A DNA stretch of 36,838 nucleotides from the NCBI GenBank assembly GCA_018897105.1, contig JAHILF010000108.1, forward strand, positions 1-36,838, given 5' to 3'. Numbering within the stretch: position 1 is the first letter of the stretch; every line of letters starts with the position of its first letter. Of this stretch, positions 3,476 through 36,838 are shown one piece after another. This DNA comes from Pseudomonadota bacterium (GTDB taxonomy: Bacteria > Desulfobacterota > Desulfobulbia > Desulfobulbales > SURF-16). The position numbers and the translations under genes were made by a program. Under the pieces are notes generated by a model. It had not been told where the DNA came from. It did not search any database and saw only the letters and a list, made by a program, of their open reading frames with translations.

Positions 3476-3623
3476 GCGATGTTTAAAACATTACTTGTGA
3501 ACTGCGCTGCAATCTTTTATATTTAGGCAAATCATGCAAACAAATAATCACGCCAAGATGAGGCACCAGTCCGACAGGCACTAATATGCATCCCACCAAA
3601 AGCCGATATGCCAAGGGCTCCTA

Positions 3624-19046: not shown

Positions 19047-19655
19047 TCAAATCCTCTGGTTGATGGCAGCAATATGCCAGTTGCCATTATCCAGATTGAT
19101 GATATTGAGGCAGCAATAGTCCTGGGGAATCAGTAAAAGATCTTTCAAGGGGAGCTGCTGCAGGCTTGCAAGCAGGACCCGGTTTACCCCTGCATGGGCA
19201 ACCACCAGCAGCGGGCCGGCATTTTCCATTGCCAGCCTGGTAAAAACCGGGAGACTGCGCTGGGCAAGATCAGCAAAACTTTCACCCCCCTCGGTTCGAT
19301 AATGGGCCAGATCCTCGCCCCGTTTTTCATATTCGCCGGGAAATCGCTTGCCCACTTCAGCAACGGTTAATCCTTCCCAGGCGCCCAGATTGATCTCGGC
19401 TAATTCGGGAACGGGCTTGATATCGATTATCCTGTCGCCGGCCACGAGTTCCGCGGTCTGCACAGTCCTGCGAAGAGGGGAGGTGAAAATCCGGGAAAGT
19501 TTAATATCCTTGAAAAAATCCCGCATGTCCCGGGCCTGGATCTTCCCTGCATCGGTCAGGGGAAGATCCAGTTGCCCCACGAAACGACGAGGCTGGAACT
19601 GTTCAATTTGCCCATGCCGCATCAGATAGATCGGTCCGCCCTTTTTTGCCGCCAA
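19047..19655 (-). CDS. Histidine phosphatase superfamily protein (CobC/GpmB-like)
   Basis: 202 residues. The phosphohistidine motif LMRHGQ (residues 11-16), the Arg-rich SPLRRTVQTAE, the acid ELAEINLGAWEG and the second histidine VAHAGVNR are all present, so the catalytic set of this superfamily is complete. It removes a phosphate from a small molecule or protein; the substrate is unknown. Start TTG at 19655 comes directly after the TGA of the preceding gene; an ATG start would cut into the first strand and the RHG motif. It is the last gene of the mop operon, suggesting a role in cofactor or nucleotide handling (CobC acts on alpha-ribazole phosphate in B12 synthesis). Confidence 0.85.
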   Translation of the reverse strand: MAAKKGGPIYLMRHGQIEQFQPRRFVGQLDLPLTDAGKIQARDMRDFFKDIKLSRIFTSPLRRTVQTAELVAGDRIIDIKPVPELAEINLGAWEGLTVAEVGKRFPGEYEKRGEDLAHYRTEGGESFADLAQRSLPVFTRLAMENAGPLLVVAHAGVNRVLLASLQQLPLKDLLLIPQDYCCLNIINLDNGNWHIAAINQRI

Positions 19656-24531: not shown

Positions 24532-24979
24532 GGTGTAATTCTTTGGGAGCACTCGGGTCAAAACCGTATGCCGTCAATATTTCCAGAACCCGGTTGCGGC
24601 TTGAGGCAATGATGTTGCCGCACTTTTGCATTTCCATGGCAGCCCCACTGGGGATGATCTCATCGCATCTGATCCCGCCCCACCTGCCGGGAGCTGCACC
24701 GGTGAACCATTCGGTGAAATCGGCCAGCATCAGCTTATAATGCGGGGACTCCTCTTCACTGGGGACCCCCTTTGCCGCATAAAGGGCGATAACGCAGGCC
24801 GCGCCGCTTGCCGCACCGCACATCTCCCCGGCACCCAGGCCGTTGCAGAGTCCGGACATGGCGCGTACCAGCGCAACGTTTTCCTCCCCCATATCTTCAA
24901 GGGCCATTTTTATTAATATCTGGCTGCAGCAAAGCCCCTGGGAGCCGAGTTGCATGATGCGCAAAACTGTATCATCCAT
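24524..24979 (-). CDS. C-GCAxxG-C-C family protein (DVU_1555-like)
   Basis: 151 residues. It shows the family pattern of redox-type cysteines: SQGLCCSQ near residues 14-20, then SGLCNGLGAGEMCGAASGAAC, and a C-terminal IRCDEIIP and MQKCGNII. Members are small proteins thought to be redox or metal-cluster proteins; no activity is established. ATG 24979 with AAGGAG 8 bases upstream is convincing; the longer frame to 25051 lies in the methyltransferase gene. It is always, in my memory, found beside this kind of radical SAM gene. Confidence 0.85.
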   Translation of the reverse strand: MDDTVLRIMQLGSQGLCCSQILIKMALEDMGEENVALVRAMSGLCNGLGAGEMCGAASGAACVIALYAAKGVPSEEESPHYKLMLADFTEWFTGAAPGRWGGIRCDEIIPSGAAMEMQKCGNIIASSRNRVLEILTAYGFDPSAPKELHHE

Positions 24980-24984
24980 TGCAA

Positions 24985-25719
24985 TTACTCCTTTTCGGCA
25001 ATGAGCAGGTAATAGCCGGGCTTTGACGTGGCGAGGGAACTGCATGTGCATGCGGCCTTCTCCGCACCCATGAACAGTTGCCAGAAAGCGGCCAGGCTGC
25101 CGTAGGTAAAGATGATCTGCCCGGCCAGTTGCCGCAGCATGGCGGTATGATCCTCAATCAGCAGAATCGTGAAACCGGCGGCCCGCAGATATGCCTTGAT
25201 GGCATCAAGGGGAAGCGCTCCGTCAAAGCAGCTGCGGATCTCACTCTGCTGCACTCCCGGCAGTGAATTTTCCTGCCGGGCATAGATGTCGGTAAGCACC
25301 AGCTTGCCGCCGGGGGCAAGAACACGCCACATTTCCTTAAGGCTTGCCTGCATGTTGTCCGTCAGGGAGAGCACGCATTCCGAGATAAGTGCAGCGAAAA
25401 AATCATTTTGTACGGGAATGGCGGCAGCGGTGGCCTGCAACAAGGGAAAGTCGGGACATAGATCCGCTGCTTGACGTAACATGGATTCGGCGGGATCAAG
25501 CCCCGTGGGCGCCATATCGAATTGTGCTGCAAGAAGGGCCATGGTCTGCCCGTAACCGCATCCCACGTCGAGAATTTTGCTGCGGGCAGGCAAACCGCAG
25601 AACCGCATGGCCCTGCGGGTCAGCGTAAGTCCCCCGGGCCGCAGTGTGTCGCCGGTGATCTGCCGCAGTTCCTGCTGTTCACAGAGCAGGGGTGTATGGT
25701 CTACGATCGAGGTGGTCAT
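24985..25719 (-). CDS. SAM-dependent methyltransferase (class I, DVU_1556-like)
   Basis: 244 residues. SAM motif I is ILDVGCGYGQTMALLA (49-64), then GLDPAESMLRQA (Asp for ribose), and the motif IV/post region EMWRVLAPGGKLVLTDIYA. No substrate-specific part is recognisable; the C-terminal 60 residues contain Cys-rich AEKAACTCSS. It starts 9 bases after the 69-residue gene's stop. The partnership with a radical SAM enzyme, a ligase and a small Cys-rich protein suggests synthesis of a small cofactor or a peptide/protein modification; which one is unknown. Confidence 0.88.
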   Translation of the reverse strand: MTTSIVDHTPLLCEQQELRQITGDTLRPGGLTLTRRAMRFCGLPARSKILDVGCGYGQTMALLAAQFDMAPTGLDPAESMLRQAADLCPDFPLLQATAAAIPVQNDFFAALISECVLSLTDNMQASLKEMWRVLAPGGKLVLTDIYARQENSLPGVQQSEIRSCFDGALPLDAIKAYLRAAGFTILLIEDHTAMLRQLAGQIIFTYGSLAAFWQLFMGAEKAACTCSSLATSKPGYYLLIAEKE

Positions 25720-25728
25720 CAGACTTAC

Positions 25729-25938
25729 TCATTTATCTTCCAGAAGTTGTTCCACTTCGAGCATTTTACCCAGTGCCAGTTTTTCGGGAACCAGCACGAA
25801 ACCGCAGGCAGGACAGGCCATCAGCTCAACATTGAACACCGAGCCCATATATTCCACGTTCACCTTGCTCGGCTGCAGTTCTTTATTGCAGCAGCCGCAA
25901 CGCCACTCCGTATCACTTATAAAGGAAAAGTTGCTCAT
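25729..25938 (-). CDS. 69-residue Cys-rich redox-type protein (DVU_1557-like)
   Basis: Cys14, Cys16 and Cys17 (RCGCCNKEL) plus Cys42 and Cys45 (ACPACGF) form a likely single-metal knuckle, as in rubredoxin-like or zinc-ribbon folds, with one extra Cys. The chain is otherwise compact, ending in an acidic helix (EVEQLLEDK). It overlaps the large oxidoreductase gene by 4 bases (ATGA). It could pass electrons between that enzyme and Mop, or be the target of the radical SAM and methyltransferase pair. Confidence 0.85.
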   Translation of the reverse strand: MSNFSFISDTEWRCGCCNKELQPSKVNVEYMGSVFNVELMACPACGFVLVPEKLALGKMLEVEQLLEDK

Positions 25939-28238
25939 TTGACATCTCCCGGCAGGATCATTCGATGACTGTAAGCATTGTGAATGACAAATCCCTGTTT
26001 ATCAGGTTGATACTCCACCCAGTACGTCACCCGGACCGGTTTGAAACTGGCAAGAAAGTGGCCGTTTTCCGGATCAATCAGCCTTCGACCCGACTGCTCA
26101 GCCTGAAAGATAACCTTCTGCAGATCATCCTCCAGAATATGTCTTTTATTCATCAGCACCATAACCTGCGCATCGATAAATAATTTGATATCCTTATACT
26201 CGGGGGGCATGGTCGGTTCCTCCTGCCAAAGGGTGGTGAGCAGATGCTGCTTGAGCCGTGCCCGGTTTTCATGCCGTCCAGAAAAGCCGGGGTTGGGGCG
26301 CAGCAGAGGATCCTCCTGTCCGCCCGCGGGGAAGAGATAGTCAAGCAGATGGGCGATACGCCTGCCGGATGCAGCAAGATTGTCCCGGCACATGGCACAG
26401 TAGGCCAGACCGTCAAGATCACTGCGCAGGCCCTTGGCGCGAGAAGCCTTCTCGCCCAGCGGCACATTGGCGAACTGCATCAGGCCCCCGTAACCGCAGC
26501 AGTCGGTCAGCTCACCTGAATAGGGCTGCTCTGCTGTTGCAATGCCGATTTTTTTTAAGATGCTGCGCACGCTTGCCCGTATCTCCGGCTCATGTCTGAC
26601 CGTGCAGGGGTCATGGATGGTCAGGAGTTGCTGCGGAGGCGCTGTTTTCTGTTCAGGGAGTTCCCCTTTGTCCAGAATCTGCCAGAGGGACTGCACTTCC
26701 AGCTCAGGGGCAAATTCCTTAAAAACGGCATAACAGCTGGAACAGGCGGTGATAATGAGCGGATCGCCCAGCTTTCTGACTTCGGTCTGGAATGTCTGCA
26801 TGGTCTGGCCAAAGAGTTCCTGCCGGCCGGACCATTGGGCGGGAATGCCGCAGCAGCCGAGCATCAACCCTACCCCACCGTCCAGATGCCGGGTCAGATG
26901 CAAATAGGTCTGTTCCACGGTCTCCGGAGCGGAGCCGGCCAGTTGGCAGCCGGGGTAGAAGAGATAACGGCTGCTGTCCAATCCAGGTTGATGCCTGGCC
27001 ATGGCAGAGAATTCACCGAGACTGAACTCCATGTCCTGCAGGGCGAACTCATGGGCCGAGGGTGGCATGGTTGATTTTGCCACCATGTTCTCACGGGTGG
27101 TCCTGCAGACCTCTGCCATGGGAAAGTCGTGGGGGCAGATGACCGTGCACTGGCCGCAGAGCATGCAGGAGTTGATCATTTTGTTGGCAGTGCGGGTGCC
27201 CTGGACAATGGCCTGGTTATTATAGATTTTGCGGGCCACTCTTTTCGGGTAATCGGTAAACTCCTGAAGAAAGGCACATTGCTTGACGCATTCCTTACAC
27301 TCACACTGGATGCAGCGTGACGCTTCCCGGGCGGCTTCCTGTTTGGTAAAGCCTGCGGCCGGATCGGCGGGCAATACCTCTTTGAGTGGTTCAATGCCAA
27401 TGGTGACCGTATGCAGCCTGGTTTGGCAGGATCCCTCCCGTTCGCGTTGGGCGGTGAGCGATACCTTCTGCAGATAGCGTTCGATGGACAGGGAGGCCCG
27501 CCGCCCATCCTCAACCTGTTTCATAATAGAAAAACCATTTTCCGTGGTTCCGCCGCCGGCAAAACAGCCATCATTGCCCACGGCAAGGGTCAACGGATCA
27601 GGATGAGTGCAATCTATGGACAGGGCAGCAAGACCTGCACAATCCCTGTCGAAAAAAACAGCATCAGAGTCTTGTCTGACTATGTCGAAAAATTCCTTAT
27701 TCAGAGAACAGCCGAACTGAATGTTGACTCCATAAGAGTCCAGGGTCTCCACGGCTCCCGAAAGTACGCGGGCGGGCAAAATCTCCTCAGCATACCCCCG
27801 CAGTGAGCCGCCGACTTCTTCATCCCCGGTCATCATGACCACGTTCCGACCCTTGCGGGCCAGATCGAGGGCTGCGGTCATGGCGCTCAGCCCTGAACCG
27901 ATGACAGCGACGCTGCCACCCTTGGCGGGAAGCTTGGGTTGTTTGAGTACCATTGGCACCGTGGACACGCAGAACCTTTCCAGGCTGCCCACGGCCAGGG
28001 GATCGCCTATCTCGGCCCGTTTGCATGCTATGCGGCATGGCTCGTCGCAGATGCGGCCGACAATATCGGCAAAAGGCATGGTCCGGTCAAGTACGCGCCT
28101 GGCTCCACGCCAGTCCTCCTTGGCAAGGCAGCCCATGAAGGCCCGGACATCAATATGGATCGGGCAGGCAGCCGAGCACTGGGGAGATTCCTCCTGTATG
28201 CAGGTAGCTTCAAGCGTGCGGAGTTGCGGTTGATCCAT
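25935..28238 (-). CDS. Flavin/iron-sulfur oxidoreductase: GltD-like N-domain, FAD, dicluster ferredoxin, two CCG domains
   Basis: 767 residues. Order: GltD-type iron-sulfur region (Cys21, Cys25, Cys64, Cys68, Cys72); FAD fold AVIGSGLSAMTAALDLARKG (111-130), with a short remaining pyridine nucleotide part; ferredoxin region with Cys309, Cys312, Cys314, Cys317, Cys321 and Cys358, Cys361, Cys364, Cys368; CCG domain 1 (FYPGCQLAG, GCCGIPAQW); CCG domain 2 (HDPCTVRHE, DCCGYGG); then a 100-residue tail of the kind found alone in some operons (LFIDAQVMVLMNKRHI). It looks like heterodisulfide-reductase-type electron wiring. Placed straight after mop, it is the best candidate to take electrons from aldehyde oxidation to NAD(P)+ or another carrier. 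Confidence 0.87.
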   Translation of the reverse strand: MDQPQLRTLEATCIQEESPQCSAACPIHIDVRAFMGCLAKEDWRGARRVLDRTMPFADIVGRICDEPCRIACKRAEIGDPLAVGSLERFCVSTVPMVLKQPKLPAKGGSVAVIGSGLSAMTAALDLARKGRNVVMMTGDEEVGGSLRGYAEEILPARVLSGAVETLDSYGVNIQFGCSLNKEFFDIVRQDSDAVFFDRDCAGLAALSIDCTHPDPLTLAVGNDGCFAGGGTTENGFSIMKQVEDGRRASLSIERYLQKVSLTAQREREGSCQTRLHTVTIGIEPLKEVLPADPAAGFTKQEAAREASRCIQCECKECVKQCAFLQEFTDYPKRVARKIYNNQAIVQGTRTANKMINSCMLCGQCTVICPHDFPMAEVCRTTRENMVAKSTMPPSAHEFALQDMEFSLGEFSAMARHQPGLDSSRYLFYPGCQLAGSAPETVEQTYLHLTRHLDGGVGLMLGCCGIPAQWSGRQELFGQTMQTFQTEVRKLGDPLIITACSSCYAVFKEFAPELEVQSLWQILDKGELPEQKTAPPQQLLTIHDPCTVRHEPEIRASVRSILKKIGIATAEQPYSGELTDCCGYGGLMQFANVPLGEKASRAKGLRSDLDGLAYCAMCRDNLAASGRRIAHLLDYLFPAGGQEDPLLRPNPGFSGRHENRARLKQHLLTTLWQEEPTMPPEYKDIKLFIDAQVMVLMNKRHILEDDLQKVIFQAEQSGRRLIDPENGHFLASFKPVRVTYWVEYQPDKQGFVIHNAYSHRMILPGDVK

Positions 28239-28328: not shown

Positions 28329-31046
28329 CTATTTTTTCATGGCGGCAAGAACCTTTTCCGGCAGGGCCGGCAGGTTTCTGACGCGGGCGCCACAGGCATT
28401 ATAAATGCCGTTGATCACCGCGGCATGGGGGCAGGTCAGCGGTAATTCGCCAACACCCGAGGCGCCGAAGGGGCCATCGGGACGCGGGGTTTCCACATAG
28501 AACAGTTCCATGTCGTCAGGGATCTGTTTGATATAGGGAAATCCTGCGCCAACCAGGGTTGAGTGCTTTTTGATGTCCTCGAAATCTTCGGTCAGGGCAA
28601 GTCCGATGGCCTGAGCCATACCGCCGTACAACTGGCCGTCAACAACGAGTTTGTTGACGATCTTGCCCACATCGGCCACGCAGGTCATCTTCTCAACGGA
28701 GGTCTTGCCCGTTGCTACTTCCACGGCAACCTCGGCCATAAACAGGCCGTACATGTAACAGCAGAAAGGATTGCCCTGGCCGTTTTCATCGCAAGCGCCG
28801 GCAGGGGCCGACCATTTGCCGTTTACCTTGGTGGGGATGTTTTCCGCCTTCATTTCATCATAGGTGCGGAAGGAACCGTCAGCCTTTTTCATGGCCTTGA
28901 TCAGCTCCTCGCAAGCGACCCGGATGGCCTGACCGACCACCACCTGGCTGCGGCTGCCGCCGGCAGGTCCGGAGTTGGGGCAGTTACTGGTGTCATTCAT
29001 CACCAATTTGATTCGGTCGCCGCTGATGCCCAGAGGTTTCAAGGCCTCATGGGCGGTGCCCAGAGTTCCCATATCAGCTCCCTGGCCATGATCCTCCCAG
29101 GTATTGTAGATGCTCACCGTGCCGTCGGCGTTCAACTCAGTATCCACTTCCGCCGTATCCGGTCCGTCCAGACCACAGCCGTAAACGCCCAGGGAGATAC
29201 CTACCCCGCGTTTTACCTCATCCGTTGAGCTGGCAGCTACTCTCTTTTTTGCCTCCTCATATTTAGGACGCAGTATGTCGAGCATCTCAGGCAGAGAATA
29301 GACCTCCGGGTCCTGACCGGTGGGGGTGGTGGAACCCTTGCGGTAGCAGTTCTTATAGCGCAGTTCCAGCGGATCCATGCCGAGCTTTTCAGCCAGTTCA
29401 TCCATCAATACCTCTGAGGCGAACTCGGACTGGGGAGAGCCGTAACCACGGAAGGCGGAACCCCAGGCATGATTGGTACAGACGGTGCGGCCTTCACCAC
29501 GGATATTTTTGATGTCATACCCTGCCCCGATAAACTGTGCTCCACGCAGGGTAAGCAGATCGCCGAATTCCGAATAAGGTCCGTGGTCAACGCTCCAATC
29601 GGTTTCCATGGCCTTGAGCATACCATCCTTGTCAGCAGCCATCTTGACATTCATGAAGAAAGGTGAACGCTTGCCGGTATAGGTCTGCTGCTGGAAATAA
29701 TCGTAGCAGAGAAATACCGGGCGGCCGGTGGCAATGGCTGCGGCGCCGACCAGTGCTTCCATGGTGGGGCTGAATTTGTAACCGAAGGTGCCGCCGGTAT
29801 TGTTCTGTACCAGGATCAAGTCTTCAGGGGCGACTCCCAGACCCGGGGCGATCATATAGAGATGAAGATGGACACCGATGGATTTGGAATGGATAACCAG
29901 TTTGTTATCATCATTATAATAGGCGAAACCGACATCAGGTTCAATCGGCATATGGGGCTGGCGGCCGACATAATAATCACCCTCAATAACCACTTCAGCC
30001 TTGTTGAAAATGGGAGCGGTCTCCTCGCCCTTAGCGATTTTCTGGATGTAATAGACATTCGGAGTACCGGGATGAATTTCCAGGGCATCCTCTTCCATGG
30101 CCGCCGGAGCACTCATGTAGGCCGGCAGTTCTTCCAGTTTCACCTTGACCTGCTTGGCCGCTTCCTTGGCATGCTTTTCGGTATCTGCACAGACGATGGC
30201 AATGGCGTCACCGAACTGAAAGACCTTTTCATCACACAGGATGGGACGATCCCAGCCATCACCTTTGTTTGTGGGGAAGGTGATCAGACCGGTAATACGG
30301 TTCTTGCCTTTGATGTCTTTGGCGGTGACCACCTTGAAGACGCCCGGCATTTTCTCCGCTTCGCTGGTATCCACGGAAAGGATATTGGCATGGGAAACCT
30401 CTGCCTGTACCAGGGCCATCTGTAGGGTATTATCCGGCAGCTGCAGACCGCGGTCCGCACCGAAATCCCAGGTGCCCGTTACCTTGGCGGCGGCGCTGGG
30501 GCGGGGTTGATGGGTACCGAATACCTTGCCGTCCGCCGGAATCTTATAGGCCAGGTCTTTCAGGCTTAGTTCGCCTTTCAGCACCTTGGCGGCATCCTGA
30601 ACCGCATCGACCAGTTGTTTGTATCCGGTGCAGCGGCAGGCATTGCGATTTTTCTGAAACCATTCGCGCACATCCTCACGTGAAGGGTCTGAATTTGCAT
30701 CGAGAAGGGCCTTGGCGGAAACGATAAAGCCAGGGGTACAAAAACCACATTGTGCACCACCATGAACCATCCAGGCCATTTGAATGGCGTGGAGATCGTC
30801 CGGGGTACCTATTCCCTCAATGGTCGTAACAGCGGCGCCATCAGCCATGCGTGACATCTTCGTCACGCAGGAACGGGTCAACTTGCCGTCCATAATAACA
30901 TTACACGCACCACACTGGGCCTTGCCGCAACCAATCTTCGTGCCGGTGAGTCTCAGTCTTTTCCGCAGAACTTCAGCCAGACTTTCATCAGCATCCACAA
31001 TAAGATTTCTTTCTACACCATTGACGTATAGTTTTTTTTTGATCAT
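28329..31046 (-). CDS. mop: Molybdenum aldehyde oxidoreductase (Mop, D. gigas type)
   Basis: 905 residues, xanthine oxidase family. The two [2Fe-2S] clusters use Cys40, Cys45, Cys48, Cys60 and Cys100, Cys103, Cys137, Cys139, the same numbers as in the D. gigas enzyme. The molybdenum part follows (TGLITFPTNKGDGWDRP, EELPAYMSGP-like AYMSAP, QPHMPIEPD, SAFRGYG), with the catalytic Glu867 in GASGVGELPL. It oxidises aldehydes to acids with water as oxygen source, in the cytoplasm; there is no flavin domain, so electrons must leave through a partner. I place the start at ATG 31046 behind TTGGAGAATGAA; the frame could start at TTG 31058. The length and strong similarity to D. gigas Mop make this very sure. 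Confidence 0.97.
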   Translation of the reverse strand: MIKKKLYVNGVERNLIVDADESLAEVLRKRLRLTGTKIGCGKAQCGACNVIMDGKLTRSCVTKMSRMADGAAVTTIEGIGTPDDLHAIQMAWMVHGGAQCGFCTPGFIVSAKALLDANSDPSREDVREWFQKNRNACRCTGYKQLVDAVQDAAKVLKGELSLKDLAYKIPADGKVFGTHQPRPSAAAKVTGTWDFGADRGLQLPDNTLQMALVQAEVSHANILSVDTSEAEKMPGVFKVVTAKDIKGKNRITGLITFPTNKGDGWDRPILCDEKVFQFGDAIAIVCADTEKHAKEAAKQVKVKLEELPAYMSAPAAMEEDALEIHPGTPNVYYIQKIAKGEETAPIFNKAEVVIEGDYYVGRQPHMPIEPDVGFAYYNDDNKLVIHSKSIGVHLHLYMIAPGLGVAPEDLILVQNNTGGTFGYKFSPTMEALVGAAAIATGRPVFLCYDYFQQQTYTGKRSPFFMNVKMAADKDGMLKAMETDWSVDHGPYSEFGDLLTLRGAQFIGAGYDIKNIRGEGRTVCTNHAWGSAFRGYGSPQSEFASEVLMDELAEKLGMDPLELRYKNCYRKGSTTPTGQDPEVYSLPEMLDILRPKYEEAKKRVAASSTDEVKRGVGISLGVYGCGLDGPDTAEVDTELNADGTVSIYNTWEDHGQGADMGTLGTAHEALKPLGISGDRIKLVMNDTSNCPNSGPAGGSRSQVVVGQAIRVACEELIKAMKKADGSFRTYDEMKAENIPTKVNGKWSAPAGACDENGQGNPFCCYMYGLFMAEVAVEVATGKTSVEKMTCVADVGKIVNKLVVDGQLYGGMAQAIGLALTEDFEDIKKHSTLVGAGFPYIKQIPDDMELFYVETPRPDGPFGASGVGELPLTCPHAAVINGIYNACGARVRNLPALPEKVLAAMKK

Positions 31047-31332
31047 TTCATTCTCCAAATTAAATGTTAGTAATGAAAACGGTTATCTCAAGGTGGCGAA
31101 CAGGTGAAAAATATGGGATGCGATTACGTACCCACACTTTCCATACAACAAACGCTGATGAAATCGTATCCATCACAATTCCATCAAAATTTTCTCTGCG
31201 GATACATCAGGTGGCTTACATCTGCAAAAAACAAAAACGGATGATGCATTCAGCGGCTTACCTGACCAGCAATGATAGGAAGAAAGCATTGACGATATCC
31301 TCTCATGATTACCATTACACAAGCTGCCTAAC
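31047..31332 (-). other. Leader between the 40-residue ORF and mop
   Basis: 286 bases with no convincing gene. A 21-codon frame (MVIMRGYRQCF...) exists but lacks a good ribosome binding site. I looked for a molybdenum cofactor riboswitch and did not see its consensus; a covariance search is needed to be sure. Confidence 0.4.
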
Positions 31333-31455
31333 TTAATTTTTTATCACAACCGTTTCGGTTAAGCAATACCTTCTCAAAGCTTCCTCTGTAATCCGAGATG
31401 TGCCTGGACCTGTTACTCCAACACTTATGAAGCCGTTCTTAAGGAGAGTACACAT
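31333..31455 (-). CDS. 40-residue ORF, first gene after the sigma-54 promoter
   Basis: Translation: starts MCTLLKNGFISVGVTGPG, then TSRITEEALRRYC, and ends TETVVIKN, with a TAA stop. AAGGAAAGG lies about 8 bases before the ATG, and the predicted sigma-54 transcription start is about 68 bases upstream, so it sits exactly where the first gene of the mop transcript should be. The codon use and sequence look protein-like (two Cys, a charged amphipathic middle part). I recognise no family. It could be a small regulator, leader peptide, or precursor peptide for the downstream radical SAM/methyltransferase system. Confidence 0.45.
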   Translation of the reverse strand: MCTLLKNGFISVGVTGPGTSRITEEALRRYCLTETVVIKN

Positions 31456-31533
31456 GGTAAGTGCCTTTCCTTCTGGTTGATCGTAGATGCTTTCTGCCTC
31501 AGTTTGCATCCGGTAACTATTTTTGTTTTCATT

Positions 31534-31549
31534 AGCAAATCATATGCCA
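31534..31549 (-). promoter_or_regulatory. Sigma-54 promoter of the mop operon
   Basis: Minus strand reads TGGCAT-ATGAT-TTGCT: GG and GC elements at the strict 12-base phase of -24/-12 promoters; one mismatch to TGGCAC-N5-TTGCW. Predicted start is near 31523. It is supported by three upstream palindromes that mirror those of the ferritin-like gene at 31964-32431. Confidence 0.75.
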
Positions 31550-31602
31550 TGAAAAAATATGATGTTATTTCAATACCTTACAAGACCATTCAGAATTAAG
31601 CA

Positions 31603-31617
31603 GGGACAACATGACTC
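31603..31617. promoter_or_regulatory. Proximal activator-type site, mop promoter
   Basis: GGGACA-ACA-TGACTC, an imperfect GGGWCA-N3-TGWCCC palindrome, centred about 63.5 bases upstream of the -24 element. The ferritin-like gene's promoter has GGGACA-ATA-TGTCCC at 65.5 bases. Confidence 0.6.
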
Positions 31618-31704
31618 AAGTACAGTAAATACTGCCTCTGTCGCCAACAAAACAGGTTGCCGGCCAACCGATAAAACGAATGCAGGATTGCCTTTAAACG
31701 CGTT

Positions 31705-31719
31705 GGGTCAGAATGAAAC
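31705..31719. promoter_or_regulatory. Middle activator-type site, mop promoter
   Basis: GGGTCA-GAA-TGAAAC, one strong and one weak half. Its centre is 32 bases from the distal site, about three helical turns. Confidence 0.55.
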
Positions 31720-31736
31720 AGCTGCTTGGCTGCAAA

Positions 31737-31751
31737 GGGTCATCCTGACCC
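31737..31751. promoter_or_regulatory. Distal activator-type site, mop promoter
   Basis: GGGTCA-TCC-TGACCC, perfect arms, centred about 197.5 bases upstream of the -24 element. It is also the core of a longer palindrome, 31721-31742 with 31746-31767 (20 of 22 pairs), which has no T-run and so is unlikely to be a terminator. Confidence 0.65.
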
Positions 31752-31839
31752 ATTGCAACCAAGCAGCAACTGGAAAGAACAATAAGGATCTACGGTATGA
31801 AAATGGGAAGAAAATTCTTGGCATCGAGTGGTACCGATT

Positions 31840-31868
31840 ACCGTTACCGGTCTGAACCCGGTAACGGT
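31840..31868. repeat. Perfect 11-base inverted repeat
   Basis: ACCGTTACCGG at 31840-31850 and CCGGTAACGGT at 31858-31868 enclose a 7-base loop. It lies about 95 bases after the end of the ferritin-like gene on the minus strand, and no T-run follows. It may stabilise that mRNA or be an operator. The rest of 31456-31963 holds the mop promoter and its sites and no convincing gene. Confidence 0.6.
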
Positions 31869-31963
31869 TAGTTGTCCGATATGAGCAACCGTGAGCAATG
31901 CATCTGTGCAGGTGCAACCGGCGCCTGAAGGGCTGGGGCATCAATAAAAACTTACTGCTTCTT

Positions 31964-32431
31964 TTACGAAGAGTAGAGTTTGCCGTTAAGAATTTTGAGA
32001 TGTCTCATCTCCTCATTGATAATGGCATCAATTTTTTCTTTCCCGGATTTGCAGTCTACCAGGTCTTTTAGACCGAGGTAAAATATGATGGATTCTTTGC
32101 CTACCGTAATAGCGGATTTTAAAATTGCTTCCTTATTTGAGATATCGAGATCTTTTTCAAAAAATTCTCTGGTATCTGACAGAGCCCTGAGATGGAGAAC
32201 TGTCTCCCCTTCCGGGTCAAAGGTCGTTGAGTTCTTGTCACAAAGCTCAAGGTTTTTTCGGAAGTCAGCAAATCTCATCCCATGGCAATCTTCCATGCCG
32301 GCAAGCTCGAGCAGAATTTTTCTCTCCTCGCCGTTCACCTTCTCGGCCGCCTTTCGGTAAAATTTTGCTCCTTTTTTTTCTACTTGTTCAGCCATTTCAA
32401 AAATTTCATCGGCAATAAAATCAAATCCCAT
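31964..32431 (-). CDS. Ferritin-like diiron protein (rubrerythrin family, no rubredoxin domain)
   Basis: 155 residues forming a four-helix bundle. Candidate diiron ligands are Glu18 or Glu15, Glu47 with His50 (MEDCH), Glu113 (GKESIIFYLG) and Glu140/Glu141 with His144 (NEEMRH), so the two ExxH-type motifs are intact, unlike in the gene at 2313. There is no C-terminal rubredoxin part. Such proteins reduce peroxide or store/sense iron. AAGGGAG lies 8 bases before the ATG and a near-perfect sigma-54 promoter lies about 50 bases before the predicted transcript start to ATG distance. It is probably controlled by the adjacent two-component system. Confidence 0.85.
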   Translation of the reverse strand: MGFDFIADEIFEMAEQVEKKGAKFYRKAAEKVNGEERKILLELAGMEDCHGMRFADFRKNLELCDKNSTTFDPEGETVLHLRALSDTREFFEKDLDISNKEAILKSAITVGKESIIFYLGLKDLVDCKSGKEKIDAIINEEMRHLKILNGKLYSS

Positions 32432-32492
32432 CAGTAGACTCCCTTGTGCTGTATCGTAAAAATTCCCTGTTGTGGTGGTCTACCGTCCTTAT

Positions 32493-32508
32493 GGCAATTT
32501 TGGTGCCA
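32493..32508 (-). promoter_or_regulatory. Sigma-54 promoter of the ferritin-like gene
   Basis: Minus strand reads TGGCAC-CAAAA-TTGCC, an almost exact -24/-12 promoter. Predicted start near 32482, about 50 bases before the ATG at 32431. Confidence 0.85.
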
Positions 32509-32563
32509 TATATAGAAATCATATAATATCGACAAGTTATACGATTATGCGGTGAAAAGACCA

Positions 32564-32578
32564 GGGACAATATGTCCC
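32564..32578. promoter_or_regulatory. Proximal activator-type site, ferritin-like gene promoter
   Basis: GGGACA-ATA-TGTCCC, perfect arms, centred about 65.5 bases upstream of the -24 element. Confidence 0.65.
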
Positions 32579-32665
32579 ATTTAACATGCTTATGATTCTT
32601 ATCTACAGTGAGGATTCCAGATGAAAATCAGTAAACCGGGGATGTGATGGCCTTAACAGCATGAG

Positions 32666-32679
32666 GGGTAAAACGACCC
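32666..32679. promoter_or_regulatory. Middle activator-type site, ferritin-like gene promoter
   Basis: GGGT-N6-ACCC, one base shorter than the others, about 31.5 bases from the distal site. Confidence 0.45.
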
Positions 32680-32696
32680 ATCGGAAAGAGACCAGT

Positions 32697-32711
32697 GGGT
32701 CATAATGACCG
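32697..32711. promoter_or_regulatory. Distal activator-type site, ferritin-like gene promoter
   Basis: GGGTCA-TAA-TGACCG, a near-perfect palindrome centred about 198.5 bases upstream of the -24 element, matching the mop arrangement within 1 base. Apart from these sites and the terminator, 32432-32833 holds nothing I recognise. Confidence 0.65.
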
Positions 32712-32833: not shown

Positions 32834-34171
32834 TCAATCGGCGTTAAACTCGTTCATTTTTCGATAAAGGGTTTTGCGGCTGATACCGAGAGCTTCTGCC
32901 GCCTTGCGCCGGTTGCCGTTATAGAAATTCAGCATTTTCAGAATATGTGTTTTTTCAACCGATTCCAAGGTAATGCTCGCCTCGGAGGTTTCCGCGGCAA
33001 CCACGAGTTCACGTGGCAGGCAGCGCTCGGTGATGATGCCGTTTTCAGCAAGAATAATGCTGCGTTCGATGACGTTACGAAGTTCCCGGATATTGCCAGG
33101 CCAATCATAGCGCAGCACGCAGTCCATGGTGCTTTGCACCATGCGGTAGGTGGTGGTATCAGGGCTGAGCGAGGTGAGAAAATAATCAACCAGCAGAGGG
33201 AGATCCTCCTTGCGTTCGCGCAGAGGGGGAATATCAATATTGAAAACATTGATACGATGAAAAAATGCTTCGTTAAAACGGCCTTTTTTGACCTCGTCGG
33301 CCAGGTCGCGGTTGGTGGCGAACAGGAAGCGGATATCCACCCGGCGTTCATCTTTTTCACCGACCCGGCGGTAGGTCTGGGTCTCCAGCATGCGCAACAG
33401 GGAGGCCTGCACCTCAAGAGGCAGTTCACCAATCTCGTCAAGAAACAGCGTGCTCTCGTGGGCATAAGACATGAGCCCTTCCCGGGATTCTCCGGCGCCG
33501 GTAAACGAACCTTTCACATGGCCGAAAAGCTCGCTGCGGGCAAGTTCCTTCTGCAGGGAGGCGCAATTCTTAATGATAATCTGATTTCCTCCCCGGCTGG
33601 AGCGATCATGGATGGCATGGGCCACCACGTCTTTGCCTACTCCTGATTCACCTGTTATGAGTACCGGGATATTGGCCGGAGCAACCTTGTCAATAAGGAA
33701 TTGAATATTGCGTATGGCCATTGAATTGCCGATAAACTTTATCGAACCCTGATCATAACCGGCCTTGTGACGGAGTATCATATTTTCCCGGGACAACCGA
33801 ACCCGCTGATGCGCTTTTTCCACCACCAGATCAAGCCGGTCAAGGTTGAACGGCTTGGGAATAAAATCACAGGCCCCGAGTTTCATGGCTTCCACGGCAC
33901 TGTCAATGTCCCCATGCCCGGTGATCATGATCACCTCGGTATGGGGAATGGAATCCCGCACCTTAATGAGCAAGTCCAGATGGGTGGTGTCGGGTAGGCG
34001 CAGATCCATGATGATGACATCGAACCAGCGGTTCCGCACCAGGGCCATTGCTTCGGCTGCCGTGGCCGCAGTGAAAACCTCTCGGCTGGAGTTTGCCAGT
34101 TCCTTCTGCAGCAGTCGTCTGATGGGCTCTTCGTCGTCAATAACGAGAACAGGATATTTTTCGTTTGCCAT
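32834..34171 (-). CDS. NtrC-family sigma-54-dependent response regulator
   Basis: 445 residues: receiver domain with phosphorylation site Asp56 (IIMDLRLP), Thr84 and Lys106 (IPKPFNL); AAA+ domain about 145-375 with Walker A GESGVGKD (174-181), the sigma-54 contact loop GSFTGA (221-226, usually GAFTGA), Walker B LFLDEIGELP (243-252) and RFNEAFFHRINVF with the arginine finger region; Fis-type helix-turn-helix at the end (GNRRKAAEALGISRKTLYRK). It activates -24/-12 promoters when phosphorylated. One base overlaps the kinase gene (TAATG). The two sigma-54 promoters found next to it are its obvious targets. Confidence 0.95.
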   Translation of the reverse strand: MANEKYPVLVIDDEEPIRRLLQKELANSSREVFTAATAAEAMALVRNRWFDVIIMDLRLPDTTHLDLLIKVRDSIPHTEVIMITGHGDIDSAVEAMKLGACDFIPKPFNLDRLDLVVEKAHQRVRLSRENMILRHKAGYDQGSIKFIGNSMAIRNIQFLIDKVAPANIPVLITGESGVGKDVVAHAIHDRSSRGGNQIIIKNCASLQKELARSELFGHVKGSFTGAGESREGLMSYAHESTLFLDEIGELPLEVQASLLRMLETQTYRRVGEKDERRVDIRFLFATNRDLADEVKKGRFNEAFFHRINVFNIDIPPLRERKEDLPLLVDYFLTSLSPDTTTYRMVQSTMDCVLRYDWPGNIRELRNVIERSIILAENGIITERCLPRELVVAAETSEASITLESVEKTHILKMLNFYNGNRRKAAEALGISRKTLYRKMNEFNAD

Positions 34172-35364
34172 TATTCAGAAATTCCGGGTAGATGTATACA
34201 GAATGTCGTGCCTTTGCCCACCTCGCTGGTCATACTGATCTGTCCGTTGTGATTTTTCACTATGGTGTAACAGGTGGAAAGTCCGATACCGATTCCTTTG
34301 CCAACCGGCTTGGTAGTAAAAAAAGGCTCAAAAAGTTTGTCCTGCAATTCGGGAGGAATGCCGCAGCCGGAATCTTTAACAATCAACCCCGCGCCGCCGG
34401 TCTCATCCGGATAGGTTTTAATCAGTATCGTACCCCCCTCACCACTGGCATCAAGGGCATTGGTCAACAAATTGATGATGACCTGCTTGAGTTGCGATTC
34501 GTCCCCCATAATCAGCGGCAGCTTATCATCTAATTCAATTTTAACAATGACTTTATGCTGTTCTTTAAAATGGTGCTTCAGGATAAACAGGGTGTCATTA
34601 ATACAATCGTTTAAGTTTACCGGGCACAGACTGGAGGCCATGGGCCGGCTGAAGGTGAGCAGTGTGCGGACGATATCCCGGCAGCGCAGACATTCCTTGA
34701 TAATGGTATCGGTATATTCTTGAAAATCGTTATACAGATCATCATCCACCTTATCGTGAATACGGCCGAGTCTGCGCCGCAACCCTTCGGCAAAACCGCT
34801 GATGGCGGTGAGAGGGTTGTTTATTTCATGGGCAACTCCGGCGGCCAGAGCCCCTACGGTAGCCATTTTTTCAGCCTGGTAAAACTGCGCCTGAAATTCT
34901 TTTTCCACCGTGACATCCCGTTTAAAGAGCAGCACGTTGCGTTCGCCGGTAAGACTGGTCTTGAGAGGCGAGGCGATCAGTTCAAAATGGCGGAATTTGT
35001 CCCCCACTTTATGGATGCACGAATCCTTACATATTTCATCACGATCCAATGCCTTGAGAACCGGGCAGCCATCACAGGGCGCATCTCTGTCTCGAAAAAA
35101 TTTATAACAGTATTGCCCCTTCGGGTCGGTATCCGGATACCATTCCTTGAAAATATGGTTGACCGACTGGATTTTCAGGTCTTCGGAAAGTACCACCATC
35201 ATATCGGTTATGGCGTCCAGCAATCCCTTAAATTCCTGGCGTTTCTTCTCAAGCTCACGATTCGAATGCTTCAGTTCCTCTACTTTGCGTTGAAGTTCCT
35301 GATAAAAACCGAGTTTGCAGTGTTCAATTCCTATAAGATCAGCAAGAGTGGTAGGGGCAGACAT
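34171..35364 (-). CDS. Cytoplasmic sensor histidine kinase with Cys-rich PAS region
   Basis: 397 residues, no membrane segments. Coiled-coil N-terminus (about 18-48), PAS-like domain (48-152) carrying Cys86, Cys97, Cys100, Cys112 and Cys116 (QYCYKFFRDRDAPCDGC, ICKDSC), HisKA with His179 (AAGVAHEINNPLTAISG), and a complete ATPase domain: NLLTNALDASG, KDSGCGIPP, FTTKPVGKGIGIGLS. The cysteines could hold an iron-sulfur cluster, a thiol switch or an adduct-forming aldehyde sensor. Start ATG 35364 is chosen because GAGGAGGT precedes it and the ADH stop overlaps it by one base (TGATG). It should phosphorylate the adjacent NtrC-type regulator. Confidence 0.92.
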   Translation of the reverse strand: MSAPTTLADLIGIEHCKLGFYQELQRKVEELKHSNRELEKKRQEFKGLLDAITDMMVVLSEDLKIQSVNHIFKEWYPDTDPKGQYCYKFFRDRDAPCDGCPVLKALDRDEICKDSCIHKVGDKFRHFELIASPLKTSLTGERNVLLFKRDVTVEKEFQAQFYQAEKMATVGALAAGVAHEINNPLTAISGFAEGLRRRLGRIHDKVDDDLYNDFQEYTDTIIKECLRCRDIVRTLLTFSRPMASSLCPVNLNDCINDTLFILKHHFKEQHKVIVKIELDDKLPLIMGDESQLKQVIINLLTNALDASGEGGTILIKTYPDETGGAGLIVKDSGCGIPPELQDKLFEPFFTTKPVGKGIGIGLSTCYTIVKNHNGQISMTSEVGKGTTFCIHLPGISE

Positions 35365-36512
35365 CACCAAACCTCCTCGCAAATCGAGAGCAGATCTTCC
35401 CATGATGCCGGTTTGGGATTGGTCAGATTACAGACATCATTGACAGCCATTTTACAGATTGGCTCAAGATACTGTCTGTCACCTTCGCTGACCTCATCGC
35501 TGAGCCTTAAGGAAACATTGAATGAGGCAAAAAAATCCTCAAGTTTAGCAATTCCTGCCAGGGCGGTTTCATCGTCCGAACCAAGCCGTTTGTCGAGTAT
35601 GACCCGGCCGATATCTGCCATTCTGCCAGGACAGGACGGCAAGTTAAACCGCATGACCGCAGTAAGCAGGATTGGATGAACAACCCCGTGGCTCATGTCA
35701 AACTGACCGCCCAAGGAGTGAGCCAGGGCATGCTCCGCTCCGAGCCCTGCATTGCTGAAGGCCATTGAAGCATATACAGAGGCAATACTCAATTGTTCCA
35801 AAGAATCTAAAGAATGTGTTTCAACGGCATGTTGAAGATTGCGGAGAATCAGATCAATGGCTTTCAGGGATTGCGGCATGGTGAACGGGGAGGCGATGGG
35901 GGAAAGATAGGCCTCAATGGCATGGGCCAGGGCGTCCACCGCGGACTGGGTAATCTGCTTTTCGGTTTTTGTGCGTAAAATCAGCGGATCGACGATGGAT
36001 ATGTTGGGCACAAGGGTGCGGGTGATAATGGACATTTTGACCGCACGTTTCACATCGGTGATGATACAGAACTGTGATATGTCAGAACCACTTCCTGCGG
36101 TGGTGGTGATGAATACCATGGGCGGCAAAGGACGCTGCACTCTGTTCGCCCCTTCATAATCACGGATCTTGCCGCCGTTGCTGGCAATAATGGCAATGCC
36201 TTTGGCAGTATCCATTGCGCTGCCTCCGCCAATGGCCATGATGACATCAGCCCGATTTTTCAGATAGAATTCCGCCCCTTCCTCCACCTGATAATCGCGG
36301 GGATTGGAGGTCACCCTGGGATAATAGATCCAGTCTATGCCTTCGGCTTTCAGAATATCCATCAGGCGCTGCACCCAGCCGGCTTCCTCAATGCCCGGAT
36401 CACTGACCAGAAAGATCTTTTTTGCCCCATGTCTCAGTGCATATTGTCCAGCATATTTGATACTTCCTCTGCCAAAAATGATTTCAGGAATAGCGAATTT
36501 GGTTGTTTCCAT
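35364..36512 (-). CDS. Iron-containing alcohol dehydrogenase (group III)
   Basis: 382 residues. It oxidises primary alcohols (or reduces aldehydes) with NAD(P)H. GGGSAMDTAKGI (near residue 96) is the cofactor loop; the metal ligands, counted from this start, are Asp193 and His197 (DALAHAIEAY), His261 (GAEHALAHSLGG) and His275 (DMSHGVVHP), as in FucO-type enzymes. I use ATG 36512, with AGGATGG upstream; an ATG at 36524 is four codons earlier and lacks a ribosome binding site. It is the first gene of an operon with a kinase and a sigma-54 activator, and it is functionally linked to Mop: it would make the aldehyde that Mop oxidises, or remove it. Confidence 0.93.
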   Translation of the reverse strand: METTKFAIPEIIFGRGSIKYAGQYALRHGAKKIFLVSDPGIEEAGWVQRLMDILKAEGIDWIYYPRVTSNPRDYQVEEGAEFYLKNRADVIMAIGGGSAMDTAKGIAIIASNGGKIRDYEGANRVQRPLPPMVFITTTAGSGSDISQFCIITDVKRAVKMSIITRTLVPNISIVDPLILRTKTEKQITQSAVDALAHAIEAYLSPIASPFTMPQSLKAIDLILRNLQHAVETHSLDSLEQLSIASVYASMAFSNAGLGAEHALAHSLGGQFDMSHGVVHPILLTAVMRFNLPSCPGRMADIGRVILDKRLGSDDETALAGIAKLEDFFASFNVSLRLSDEVSEGDRQYLEPICKMAVNDVCNLTNPKPASWEDLLSICEEVW

Positions 36513-36524
36513 TTTTATTACCAT

Positions 36525-36807
36525 CCTAATTTTTAGTTATTCATTTCTTAGACTGAATATTTGTGAGAAAGTTCAAATTGTTGATAACTTTTATTAAATC
36601 TACTTTAACCTTTCGTTGTAACAAATAATTTTTAAAAATAGTCATGGCCGCAGAAGATATACAATTTTTAATTAAAATATTATTCTCATAATTTGACATC
36701 AATGTCATTAACTTAGTACACGTATTCTTAAATACGATGACGTATTTTTGTTGAAAGTTTGACTTTTAACGTGATAACGTACCTCCAAACAATAAAGGAG
36801 GTGCGAT
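36525..36807. promoter_or_regulatory. Upstream region of the alcohol dehydrogenase operon
   Basis: AT-rich, no gene. It holds TGACAT-CA-ATGTCA (about 36698-36711), CGTATT-CTTA-AATACG (about 36720-36735) and a short hairpin ACCTCC/GGAGGT (36781-36802). No -24/-12 promoter or GGGWCA palindrome was found, so this operon is probably read from a sigma-70 promoter with its own operators. Confidence 0.4.
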
Positions 36808-36838
36808 ATCCCAAGAAAAAGCCCATACACAATATTGC
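36808..36838 (+). CDS. Possible start of an IS630-like transposase gene (cut by the window edge)
   Basis: After AAAGGAGG (36794-36801) the frame reads PRKSPYTIL, which resembles the opening of IS630-family helix-turn-helix proteins (MPRKSPYTI...). The codon where ATG is expected, 36808-36810, is ATC, at the ideal 6-base distance from GGAGG. Only nine residues are visible, so this is a weak call. Confidence 0.3.
   Translation, partial: MPRKSPYTIL

Follow-up and report, generated by a model that had tools for sequence, protein, structure and literature searches.

A conserved three-site enhancer–promoter unit probably links alcohol and aldehyde oxidation genes to an adjacent NtrC-type regulator in a group of sulfate reducers

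Two upstream regions in the 36,838-nt stretch of DNA analyzed here (the window), one preceding a molybdopterin-dependent aldehyde oxidoreductase gene (mop) and the other a ferritin-like gene, are best read as copies of a single enhancer–promoter unit that would be recognized by the NtrC-type response regulator encoded beside them and would switch an alcohol-oxidation pathway, a reading to which we assign a probability of about 0.86. Because a common layout of three palindromic sites, a bending site, and a sigma-54-type promoter precedes these genes, the adjacent sensor–regulator pair probably activates alcohol and aldehyde oxidation genes and ferritin-like genes jointly in a group of sulfate reducers.

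Both promoters conform by direct reading to the GG-N10-GC pattern of the −24/−12 element and are kept in two relatives (loci L046 and L047). The mop promoter occupies positions 31534–31549 (minus strand, 31549–31534 = TGGCATATGATTTGCT) and that of the ferritin-like gene positions 32493–32508 (minus strand, 32508–32493 = TGGCACCAAAATTGCC). Upstream of each, at looping distance, lie three predicted activator sites, inverted repeats of the form GGGWCA-N3-TGWCCC on the minus strand. For mop, site A (31737–31751) has no mismatch and is embedded in a longer palindrome (31721–31767), site B (31705–31719) has two mismatches and a weak left half, and site C (31603–31617) has one mismatch. For the ferritin-like gene, A (32697–32711) has one mismatch, B (32665–32679) has three, yet is identical in L046 and L047, and C (32564–32578) has none. 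The first-pass annotation had described two promoters with three palindromic sites each, and its centre-to-hexamer distances for mop and the ferritin-like gene (197.5/198.5, 165.5/167, and 63.5/65.5) proved right, except that the middle ferritin-like site is at 166.5, not 167; the arrangement turned out to be wider than two promoters.

The middle sites of both promoters are weak taken alone, and the window holds 60 matches to the motif at up to three mismatches where 43.9 are expected, so that single loose matches carry little weight. Such numbers, like the 65 places within one mismatch in the genome compared with 43 for the reversed pattern, are what chance matching to a loose motif would draw on. 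The evidence for the window sites is their joint layout, tested outside the window.

Footprinting across relatives delineated one conserved unit: sites A, B, and C at −203, −171, and −70, an IHF-like site at −31, and finally TGGCAY-N5-TTGC. The start-to-start spacings are 31–33 bp from A to B, 100–105 bp from B to C, about 39 bp from C to the IHF-like site, and about 31 bp from there to the −24 element; the A–B and B–C values come from 25 listed units preselected for good sites (score of at least 26) and are therefore descriptive rather than a test. A blind positional test was confined to units outside the window, whose promoters were chosen with no regard to sites. All three sites (score of at least 8 each) occurred at the window's offsets in 19 of 25 such units, compared to 0 of 10,000 shuffled upstream regions. 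At a score of at least 9 of 12, A was found in 20, B in 17, and C in 17 of the 25, whereas 131 control offset windows gave a mean of 0.7% and a maximum of 8%. Many units have a weak site B. The remaining 38 of the 63 non-window units had no promoter with at most one mismatch or too little upstream sequence, the mop units of L046 and L047 being omitted only because 700 bp of upstream sequence was taken. The blind test, together with the statistics of the IHF-like site and the profile results in loci and genomes described below, leads us to reject chance, whose probability is negligible.

The IHF-like consensus YAANNNNTTGATW, at −34 to −29, is matched at eight or more of nine positions in 17 of 27 units (control windows, mean 0.1; shuffled spacers, mean 0.28 and largest 2), the site having been first noticed and then tested on the same 27 units. 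In the window it reads TAAGGTATTGAAA in the mop unit (31568–31580, minus strand; −31 from the −24 element) and TAACTTGTCGATA in the ferritin-like unit (32527–32539, minus strand), each agreeing at 8/9 consensus positions. Many sigma-54 promoters, though not all, have an IHF-type bend between enhancer and promoter. An IhfA model searched against the window's genome returned six HU/IHF-family matches, none over the cut-off. The first-pass annotation had recognized the A–C sites and the promoters and had overlooked this element, as well as the units before the iron alcohol dehydrogenase genes (FeADH1 and FeADH2) introduced below.

Between target classes, spacer identity averages 30–34% and motif identity 62–68%, which indicates that the spacing has outlived the sequence. 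The layout might nevertheless reflect inheritance rather than constraint, an ancestral promoter having been copied to several genes with its spacing persisting. The targets often adjoin one another, and the spacers of the window pair show 40% aligned identity after gap optimization, slightly above the shuffled mean of 27% (sd 4%), with 29% for the same pair in L046. The low between-class spacer identity argues against this explanation, as does locus L150, in which A and B are shifted together by about 9 bp, near one helical turn, toward the promoter; we regard it as possible but improbable. That the two promoters in the window arose by recent duplication is not clearly supported by the comparison, the two spacers being not clearly alike, in keeping with the earlier claim that the rest of the two regions differs.

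Alternatively, the palindromes could form RNA or DNA hairpins, as in terminators of upstream genes or repressor operators. Site A of mop lies within a palindrome with 22-nt arms, which by alignment reading differ in L047 and yet still pair, and the facing halves of A and B in the ferritin-like unit can pair ahead of GTTTT. However, position is fixed relative to the −24/−12 element and not to the upstream gene, the A–B and B–C spacings hold throughout the 25 units (chosen for their good sites), and the palindrome recurs at C, beside the promoter, so that hairpins make a very unlikely substitute for activator sites. Two other candidates in the mop leader were rejected. A known riboswitch or RNA has no Rfam match there, the sole match over the window being a group II intron piece at 3354–3505, and folding three leaders to a consensus gives an unfavorable covariation term (+3.7 kcal/mol). 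A conserved leader peptide, encoded by a 58-aa ORF (31333–31509), has no Pfam match, and the frame is, by alignment reading, interrupted in L046 and shifted in L047.

The mop gene (28329–31058, minus strand; likely start codon near 31046, by reading) was identified by Pfam and by model NF045668 (1722.9 bits, cut-off 1100). It is followed by closely spaced co-directional genes (19047–28238, minus strand), a spacing that suggests an operon. Model or family matches identify a dicluster oxidoreductase (NF045663), a methyltransferase, and a C_GCAxxG_C_C protein among them; radical SAM, ligase-like, XdhC-like, MocA-like, and phosphatase-like ORFs were assigned by reading only. The ferritin-like gene (31964–32431, minus strand) encodes a rubrerythrin-family protein (PF02915, 29.2 bits, cut-off 22.8) in which Pfam detected no rubredoxin domain, and its nearest solved relative is TM1526 (1vjx, E 2.4e-12). 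The sequence fits the pattern E, ExxH, E/D, ExxH, with E18, E47, H50, E141, and H144 invariant in 7/7 proteins and E or D at position 113, residues that would serve as diiron ligands.

The proposed activator (32834–34171, minus strand) combines a receiver domain (PF00072), a sigma-54 AAA+ domain (PF00158), and a Fis-type HTH (PF02954). Its GSFTGA loop is present in 22 of the 25 closest orthologs and also in 15 of 94 entries below 50% identity. The neighboring gene encodes a PAS histidine kinase (34171–35403, minus strand; Pfam), in which no membrane segment was seen when the sequence was read by eye; Cys99, Cys110, and Cys113 are invariant in all 34 orthologs covering them. FeADH1 (35364–36524, minus strand; Pfam), an iron alcohol dehydrogenase gene, overlaps the kinase gene and is the first gene of the kinase–regulator operon; D197, H201, H269, and H279 are the presumed metal ligands of its product. 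Among the 25 closest regulator loci (L046–L070), the regulator adjoins the kinase in all 25 and FeADH1 in all 21 whose contig reaches that far. FeADH1 in the window is separated by a foreign stretch (36591–36838) from its own promoter unit, which lies on another contig (C156:287–505); the last 141 bp of this stretch are also present at the ends of four further contigs.

Because 27 units served to train a profile of the unit (R1), matches to those 27 hold by construction; a match spanning model positions 1–4 to 218–220 was counted as full length. In the window's genome, R1 identifies five places, preceding mop, two ferritin-like genes, FeADH1, and FeADH2-hdr-flx. It yields 31 full-length matches in 40 sources. 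Of the 25 closest regulator loci, 19 contain a full unit; the other six comprise three from Desulfobulbus with upstream DNA present (L054, L056, and L061) and three without the FeADH1 upstream region (L057, L062, and L066). Matches outside the training set precede FeADH2-hdr-flx, a second ferritin-like gene, an AOR gene, mop, and FeADH1. Among whole genomes, 16 full-length matches fall in 4/4 genomes with the regulator (the window's own included) and none in the 34 without it, a co-occurrence confounded by descent, as the four are close relatives. It is important to note that L046 is contained in G002 and L047 in G004, and that L148 derives from G018; these sources are thus not independent of one another.

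In a sample of the phylum, full-length matches were found in 2 of 297 genomes, both carrying the regulator; of the 21 genomes in the phylum whose regulator match reaches E ≤ 1e-110, only 2 have the full unit. Regulator orthologs at 52–62% identity (L151–L161) show at most weak matches, in L152 and L155, and in L154 neither kinase nor FeADH1 lies beside the regulator. Weak matches in genomes without the regulator (L232–L236) are partial and include no sites of at most one mismatch. The first-pass annotation had proposed scanning the genome for the motif near −24/−12 promoters. Scanning with the single motif proved uninformative: among the 15 of the 65 places examined (about 500 bp on each side), a fitting promoter, with at most two mismatches at a suitable distance and orientation, accompanies the two in the window and none of the others.

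These searches also bear on which protein reads the sites. In the window's genome, scoring 45 of 210 candidates gave at least 31 NtrC-type matches, and Fis-type HTHs recognize related palindromes; the sites could consequently be sigma-54 enhancers bound by another of these proteins. This is very unlikely: all 38 genomes carry other NtrC-type proteins, yet full units are confined to the four with the adjacent regulator; no R1 matches were obtained near the 31 paralog-regulator loci searched (of 55, L071–L125); and the operon that contains the regulator gene itself has the unit upstream in 8/21 loci. The adjacent regulator is the favored activator, and the original proposal of a sigma-54-type regulon defined by this motif and a fixed layout gains support from the blind test and the co-occurrence.

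Within the 25 closest loci, the unit precedes FeADH2, the head of hdrCBA-flx, in 13/13 cases, which makes FeADH2 the constant target of the proposed regulon; the same arrangement occurs in the window's genome (by Pfam) and in G004, G018, and G338 (by ORF resemblance). The unit precedes FeADH1 in 8/21 loci and is absent as a full unit in the other 13 (one with only 149 bp upstream). Conservation of the palindromes upstream of orthologous genes, a check set in advance, was observed: the unit precedes mop in 4/6 loci (L046, L047, L048, and L067; not L058 or L069) and the ferritin-like gene in 2/2. It is also found before ferritin-like genes in G335 and G338 and before a second ferritin-like copy in the window's genome and G002. 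The initial description of the content as aldehyde oxidation and a peroxide/iron protein is too narrow, as it leaves out the FeADH targets, and a peroxide role for the ferritin-like protein is putative.

A simple model would start with the PAS kinase, which, in response to an alcohol, aldehyde, or redox signal, would phosphorylate the regulator, allowing regulator dimers to bind the palindromes. A and B, three helical turns apart, would nucleate the AAA+ oligomer, with C lying toward the promoter. IHF, or a relative from the HU/IHF family, would bend the DNA between C and the promoter, and through this bend the oligomer would touch sigma-54 polymerase at TGGCAY-N5-TTGC and open it. FeADH2 (and FeADH1) would convert alcohols to aldehyde, Mop or an AOR-family enzyme would oxidize the aldehyde, and the electrons would be handled by Hdr-Flx and, in one genome, Rnf; the ferritin-like protein may act in iron supply or in protection of the enzymes. 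Where the FeADH1–kinase–regulator operon carries the unit (the 8/21 loci and the window's genome), positive feedback would result; operons without it must be driven otherwise. A bolder and rather doubtful extension would see a rigid enhanceosome whose fixed grammar outlives its spacers and is reused for each alcohol-to-acid step, with FeADH1 reporting alcohol flux to the cysteine-bearing PAS domain, as ErcA may in Pseudomonas.

On the control of alcohol and aldehyde oxidation genes in sulfate reducers, a 2023 study states that regulation of hnd, adh, and aor in Solidesulfovibrio remains to be elucidated (PMC10084766). Our analysis provides a candidate regulator, a motif, a promoter grammar, and a target list. 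FeADH2 could be tested in Desulfopila aestuarii DSM 18488, Desulfoprunum benzoelyticum DSM 28570, and Desulfopila sp. IMCC35006, the wider target set so far coming mainly from metagenome assemblies; in the first two of these strains, FeADH2 is the sole target with a full unit. The limits that spacing sets on DNA looping by NtrC-type activators could be studied in the natural series that this fixed geometry provides.

Several known systems share individual features. NtrC sites of glnA are spaced about 32 bp apart, as A and B are here, in tandem and far upstream of a sigma-54 promoter. Tandem NtrC/NRI sites precede glnAp2 (PMC4740811); the unit described here differs in its third strong site near the promoter, the IHF-like site at a fixed position, the motif, and the genes. 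The orp system of D. vulgaris shows IHF-dependent sigma-54 promoters in a sulfate reducer, with another regulator and other genes (PMC3897727). AdhR and AorR are predicted sigma-54 activators of alcohol dehydrogenase and aldehyde oxidoreductase genes in anaerobes, but of Clostridiales and with one regulator per gene (PMC6615313). In Pseudomonas aeruginosa, the gene for ErcA, a cytoplasmic Fe-ADH, lies beside that for the sensor kinase ErcS and is implicated in regulating ethanol use, but that kinase is a hybrid kinase (PMC12997753). Furthermore, FeADH1 scores 392.4 bits against the ErcA model NF041833, its best NCBIfam model, under the cut-off of 550, and FeADH2 scores 415 bits.

The closest counterpart is the DVU2394 regulon of D. 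vulgaris Hildenborough, which the proposed regulon matches in genes and synteny, the orthology of the regulators being judged by synteny, target, and loop only. In both, the regulator gene adjoins a kinase gene (DVU2395 in D. vulgaris) and an Fe-ADH gene, and a Fe-ADH-hdrCBA-flx operon is the target, here a predicted one. DVU2394, an NtrC-type two-component regulator with a GSFTGA loop, controls the adh-hdr operon (PMC3333781, PMC4641369), mapped as DVU2405-2397 (PMC3333781); Adh2, an Fe-ADH, carries the locus number DVU2396, two above DVU2394 (PMC10920352). DVU2394, DVU2395, and DVU2396 all acquired mutations in evolution experiments (PMC7439460, PMC8319347), those in DVU2394 recurring across lines of one of them (PMC8319347). 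In contrast to the inverted repeats found here, the site validated for DVU2394 has been described as a direct repeat, reported only in D. vulgaris Hildenborough and Miyazaki, and the other targets of DVU2394 include a stress operon (PMC3333781, PMC4641369); the words "aldehyde" and "rubrerythrin" do not occur in the main text of PMC3333781. Given this match in genes and synteny, the initial description of the regulon as undescribed is only partly true, whereas the palindromic motif, the fixed layout, the IHF-like site, and the added targets (mop, AOR, ferritin-like, and Rnf genes) seem to be new.

The region 31534-32711 on the minus strand contains two -24/-12 elements, TGGCATATGATTTGCT before the aldehyde oxidoreductase gene mop (28329-31058, minus strand) and TGGCACCAAAATTGCC before a ferritin-like gene (31964-32431, minus strand). 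A direct reading places three GGGWCA-N3-TGWCCC-like palindromes (sites A, B, and C) upstream of each. Counted from the T of TGGC, the sites start at -202, -170, and -68 for mop and at -203, -171, and -70 for the ferritin-like gene; the coordinates and distances in the first-pass annotation proved right on re-reading. Site B is weak at both promoters, with two mismatches at mop and three at the ferritin-like gene. Also on the minus strand lie the genes for an NtrC-type response regulator (32834-34171), a PAS kinase (34171-35403), and the iron alcohol dehydrogenase FeADH1 (35364-36524). A run of tightly spaced genes on the same strand continues from mop down to 19047 and is probably the mop operon. 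A group II intron D1-D4-6 match (Rfam RF02005) is located at 3354-3505 on the minus strand.

The motif has many loose matches, with 60 in the window against 43.9 expected (three mismatches) and 65 in the window's own genome against 43 with the reversed pattern (one mismatch), and position was therefore tested instead. A regulator scan of named genomes kept 80 loci, 25 of which (L046-L070, titled mostly as Desulfobulbaceae or genera thereof) carry orthologs of 69-96% identity. In these and 14 further loci (L148-L161), the best promoter with at most one mismatch was chosen blind to the sites before orthologs of FeADH1, mop, the ferritin-like gene, and FeADH2, the iron alcohol dehydrogenase gene heading hdr-flx; 38 of 63 non-window units were dropped because such a promoter was absent or the upstream DNA was too short. 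Among the 25 tested, sites A, B, and C scored at least 9 of 12 in 20, 17, and 17 units, respectively, compared to a mean of 0.7% (largest, 8%) over 131 control offset windows. All three sites reached at least 8 in 19 of the 25 units and in none of 10,000 shuffled regions, which confirms the shared motif and three-site layout claimed for the two window promoters and extends it beyond them. The six failures were mop in L058, FeADH2 in L060, L149, L150, and L152, and FeADH1 in L155. Spacing over 25 units, a descriptive figure from units picked for good sites, was 31-33 bp for A-B and 100-105 bp for B-C. In L150, both A and B lie about 9 bp nearer the promoter, arithmetically close to one helical turn.

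An alignment of 27 units revealed nearly invariant columns between site C and the promoter, which we take to match the IHF consensus in reverse, YAANNNNTTGATW. This IHF-like site, at -34 to -29, was both spotted and tested in the one set of 27 units, where at least 8 of 9 positions agree in 17 and all nine in 7; 145 control windows gave a mean of 0.1 units (largest, 1) and shuffled spacers a mean of 0.28 (largest, 2). Six proteins of the own genome match the IhfA family model, all below its cut-off. Action of IHF at sigma-54 promoters is reported for orp in Desulfovibrio vulgaris (PMC3897727).

From the 27 units, a sequence-only profile, R1, was built and used to search 14 genomes. In the own genome it returned five full-length matches (model positions 1-4 to 218-220), before mop (E 1.9e-30) and the ferritin-like gene (E 2.2e-28) in the window, at the FeADH1 promoter (C156:287-505, E 1.2e-25), before FeADH2 (C73:35582-35801, E 2.8e-21), and before a second ferritin-like gene (L216:401-877; match C109:1016-1230, E 2.5e-8); the next match had E 0.03. 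The C73 and C109 matches lie outside the training set. After the C73 unit come FeADH2, genes read as hdrC, hdrB, and hdrA, and then flx. This hdrA scores 819 bits on the HdrA2 model, below the cut-off of 1100, and the flxD-like gene, masked by an opposite ORF on C73, is visible in L219, L220, L226, and L228.

Held-out full-length matches precede FeADH2 in G002, G004, G018, G338, and G336; the second ferritin-like gene in G002; ferritin-like genes in G335 and G338; FeADH1 in G339; and an aldehyde ferredoxin oxidoreductase gene (AOR; PF01314 and PF02730) in G335. In G336 (C256:932-1150, L224), a further held-out full-length unit precedes a dihydroorotate dehydrogenase family gene, followed by rnfC and more rnf-like genes. 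Matches before mop (L048, L067) and FeADH1 (L050, L051) were also held out. FeADH2 and mop are headed by a partial match in G334, and in L069 a unit-bearing FeADH2 lies directly upstream of mop. At the 25 loci with the closest regulators, a unit stands before all 13 FeADH2 genes, 8 of 21 FeADH1 genes (one of those lacking it has just 149 bp of DNA ahead of it), 4 of 6 mop genes, and both ferritin-like genes. FeADH2 alone has a full-length match in the genomes of Desulfopila sp. IMCC35006, Desulfopila aestuarii DSM 18488, and Desulfoprunum benzoelyticum. The regulon content first proposed, aldehyde oxidation and a peroxide/iron protein, is too narrow, as it left out the FeADH2, FeADH1, AOR, and rnf targets.

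Within the samples searched, the full unit is restricted to regulator-bearing genomes. When 38 relatives were scanned with the regulator and then with R1, a regulator ortholog was present in four (82-100% identity, among them the own genome and G002 and G004, to which L046 and L047 belong), and these contain all 16 full-length units (5, 5, 4, and 2). The remaining 34, with paralogs of about 43% identity or below, yielded no full-length unit, the best match being partial (E 1.4e-6). Among 297 genomes sampled across the phylum, 21 had a regulator match at E ≤ 1e-110, and under stricter filters R1 found full-length units in two, the own genome and G124 (regulator identity, 69%). Over 40 sources, R1 gave 31 full-length matches; 27 of these fall within 19 of the 25 closest loci, L148 and L150 supply one apiece, and the window supplies two. 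None was found in 31 of the 55 paralog-regulator loci. In the Desulfobulbus loci L054, L056, and L061, both regulator and FeADH1 are present and R1 finds no full unit, and L151-L161 (regulator orthologs of 52-62%) gave at most weak matches, in L152 and L155; regulators below about 68% identity are therefore never seen with the full layout. Pairs resembling A-B and spaced by 32 bp precede FeADH1 in L155 and L156, and the FeADH1-kinase-regulator arrangement extends to more distant regulators, L154 excepted.

In L046-L070, the kinase adjoins the regulator in 25 of 25 loci and FeADH1 comes first in all 21 whose contig reaches it; the FeADH1 and kinase ORFs overlap by 40 bp in the window. FeADH1 is probably an enzyme, since its four presumed metal ligands are kept in 34 of 34 orthologs. 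The NCBIfam model that fits it best, ErcA, stands for a regulatory protein resembling alcohol dehydrogenases, but the score lies below the cut-off (392 versus 550 bits); FeADH2 scores 415 bits on this model as well. An invariant C-x10-C-x2-C (Cys99, Cys110, and Cys113; 34 of 34) in the kinase PAS region suggests a metal or redox sensor. In the own genome, a foreign stretch (window 36591-36838 and C156:1-264) separates FeADH1 on the window's contig, C72, from its promoter unit on C156. Where the two contigs are homologous they overlap by 10 bases, and the terminal 141 bp of C72 also occur at the ends of four other contigs; the stretch is probably a multi-copy element. An Rfam search of both its edges gave no match. 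Contig C156 also has a c-di-GMP-I riboswitch match (L227 5197-5271).

The mop leader (31059-31533, about 475 nt) is conserved in L046 and L047, with a mean column identity of 84% when leader and upstream region are taken together. In the window the leader contains an ORF of 58 aa, which looks broken in both relatives. Site A of mop lies inside a palindrome with 22-nt arms (31721-31767); in the alignment, the arms differ in L047 with pairing kept. This palindrome could double as a terminator hairpin. In the ferritin-like unit (32665-32711), facing halves of A and B can pair as a GACCCA...TGGGTC hairpin, followed by GTTTT, possibly a regulator-operon terminator made of activator sites.

In the probable mechanism, the phosphorylated regulator would bind sites A to C, with IHF helping looping, and open sigma-54 polymerase; the signal may be alcohol, aldehyde, or redox state, and the system would activate itself where FeADH1 carries a unit. 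Given what these enzymes are known to do, the targets would form a pathway from alcohol through aldehyde to acid, with electrons passing to Hdr-Flx or Rnf. A part for the ferritin-like gene in this pathway is a guess; among solved structures, its product comes nearest to TM1526, a ferritin-like protein (1vjx, E 2.4e-12). The first-pass interpretation is partly supported. The system is most probably an alcohol regulon of the NtrC type, whose motif is palindromic, whose three sites and IHF-like site keep a fixed layout, and whose targets track the pathway.

The first-pass annotation had called the regulon undescribed. Motif, layout, and membership were absent from the titles and opening abstracts listed for sigma54 Desulfovibrio regulons, DVU2394/DVU2396/DVU2405, flxABCD with sigma54, and aldehyde oxidoreductase with sigma54, and a search joining Desulfobulb- with sigma-54, alcohol dehydrogenase, and response regulator found nothing, in a collection that covers little of the subscription literature. 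The system itself, however, very probably has a counterpart. PMC3333781 has D. vulgaris DVU2405-2397 (adh and hdr genes) regulated by DVU2394, which it describes as conserved across many sulfate-reducing bacteria; PMC10920352 identifies DVU2396 as Adh2, DVU2399-2403 as Flx and Hdr, and DVU2405 as Adh1. The validated DVU2394 site is called a direct repeat, found elsewhere only in D. vulgaris Miyazaki (PMC3333781), whereas the sites here are palindromes. A sigma-54 study gives DVU2394 a GSFTGA loop (PMC4641369), as in the window's regulator and 22 of its 25 closest orthologs. On the grounds of synteny, target, and loop, the DVU2394 system very probably corresponds to the one in the window.
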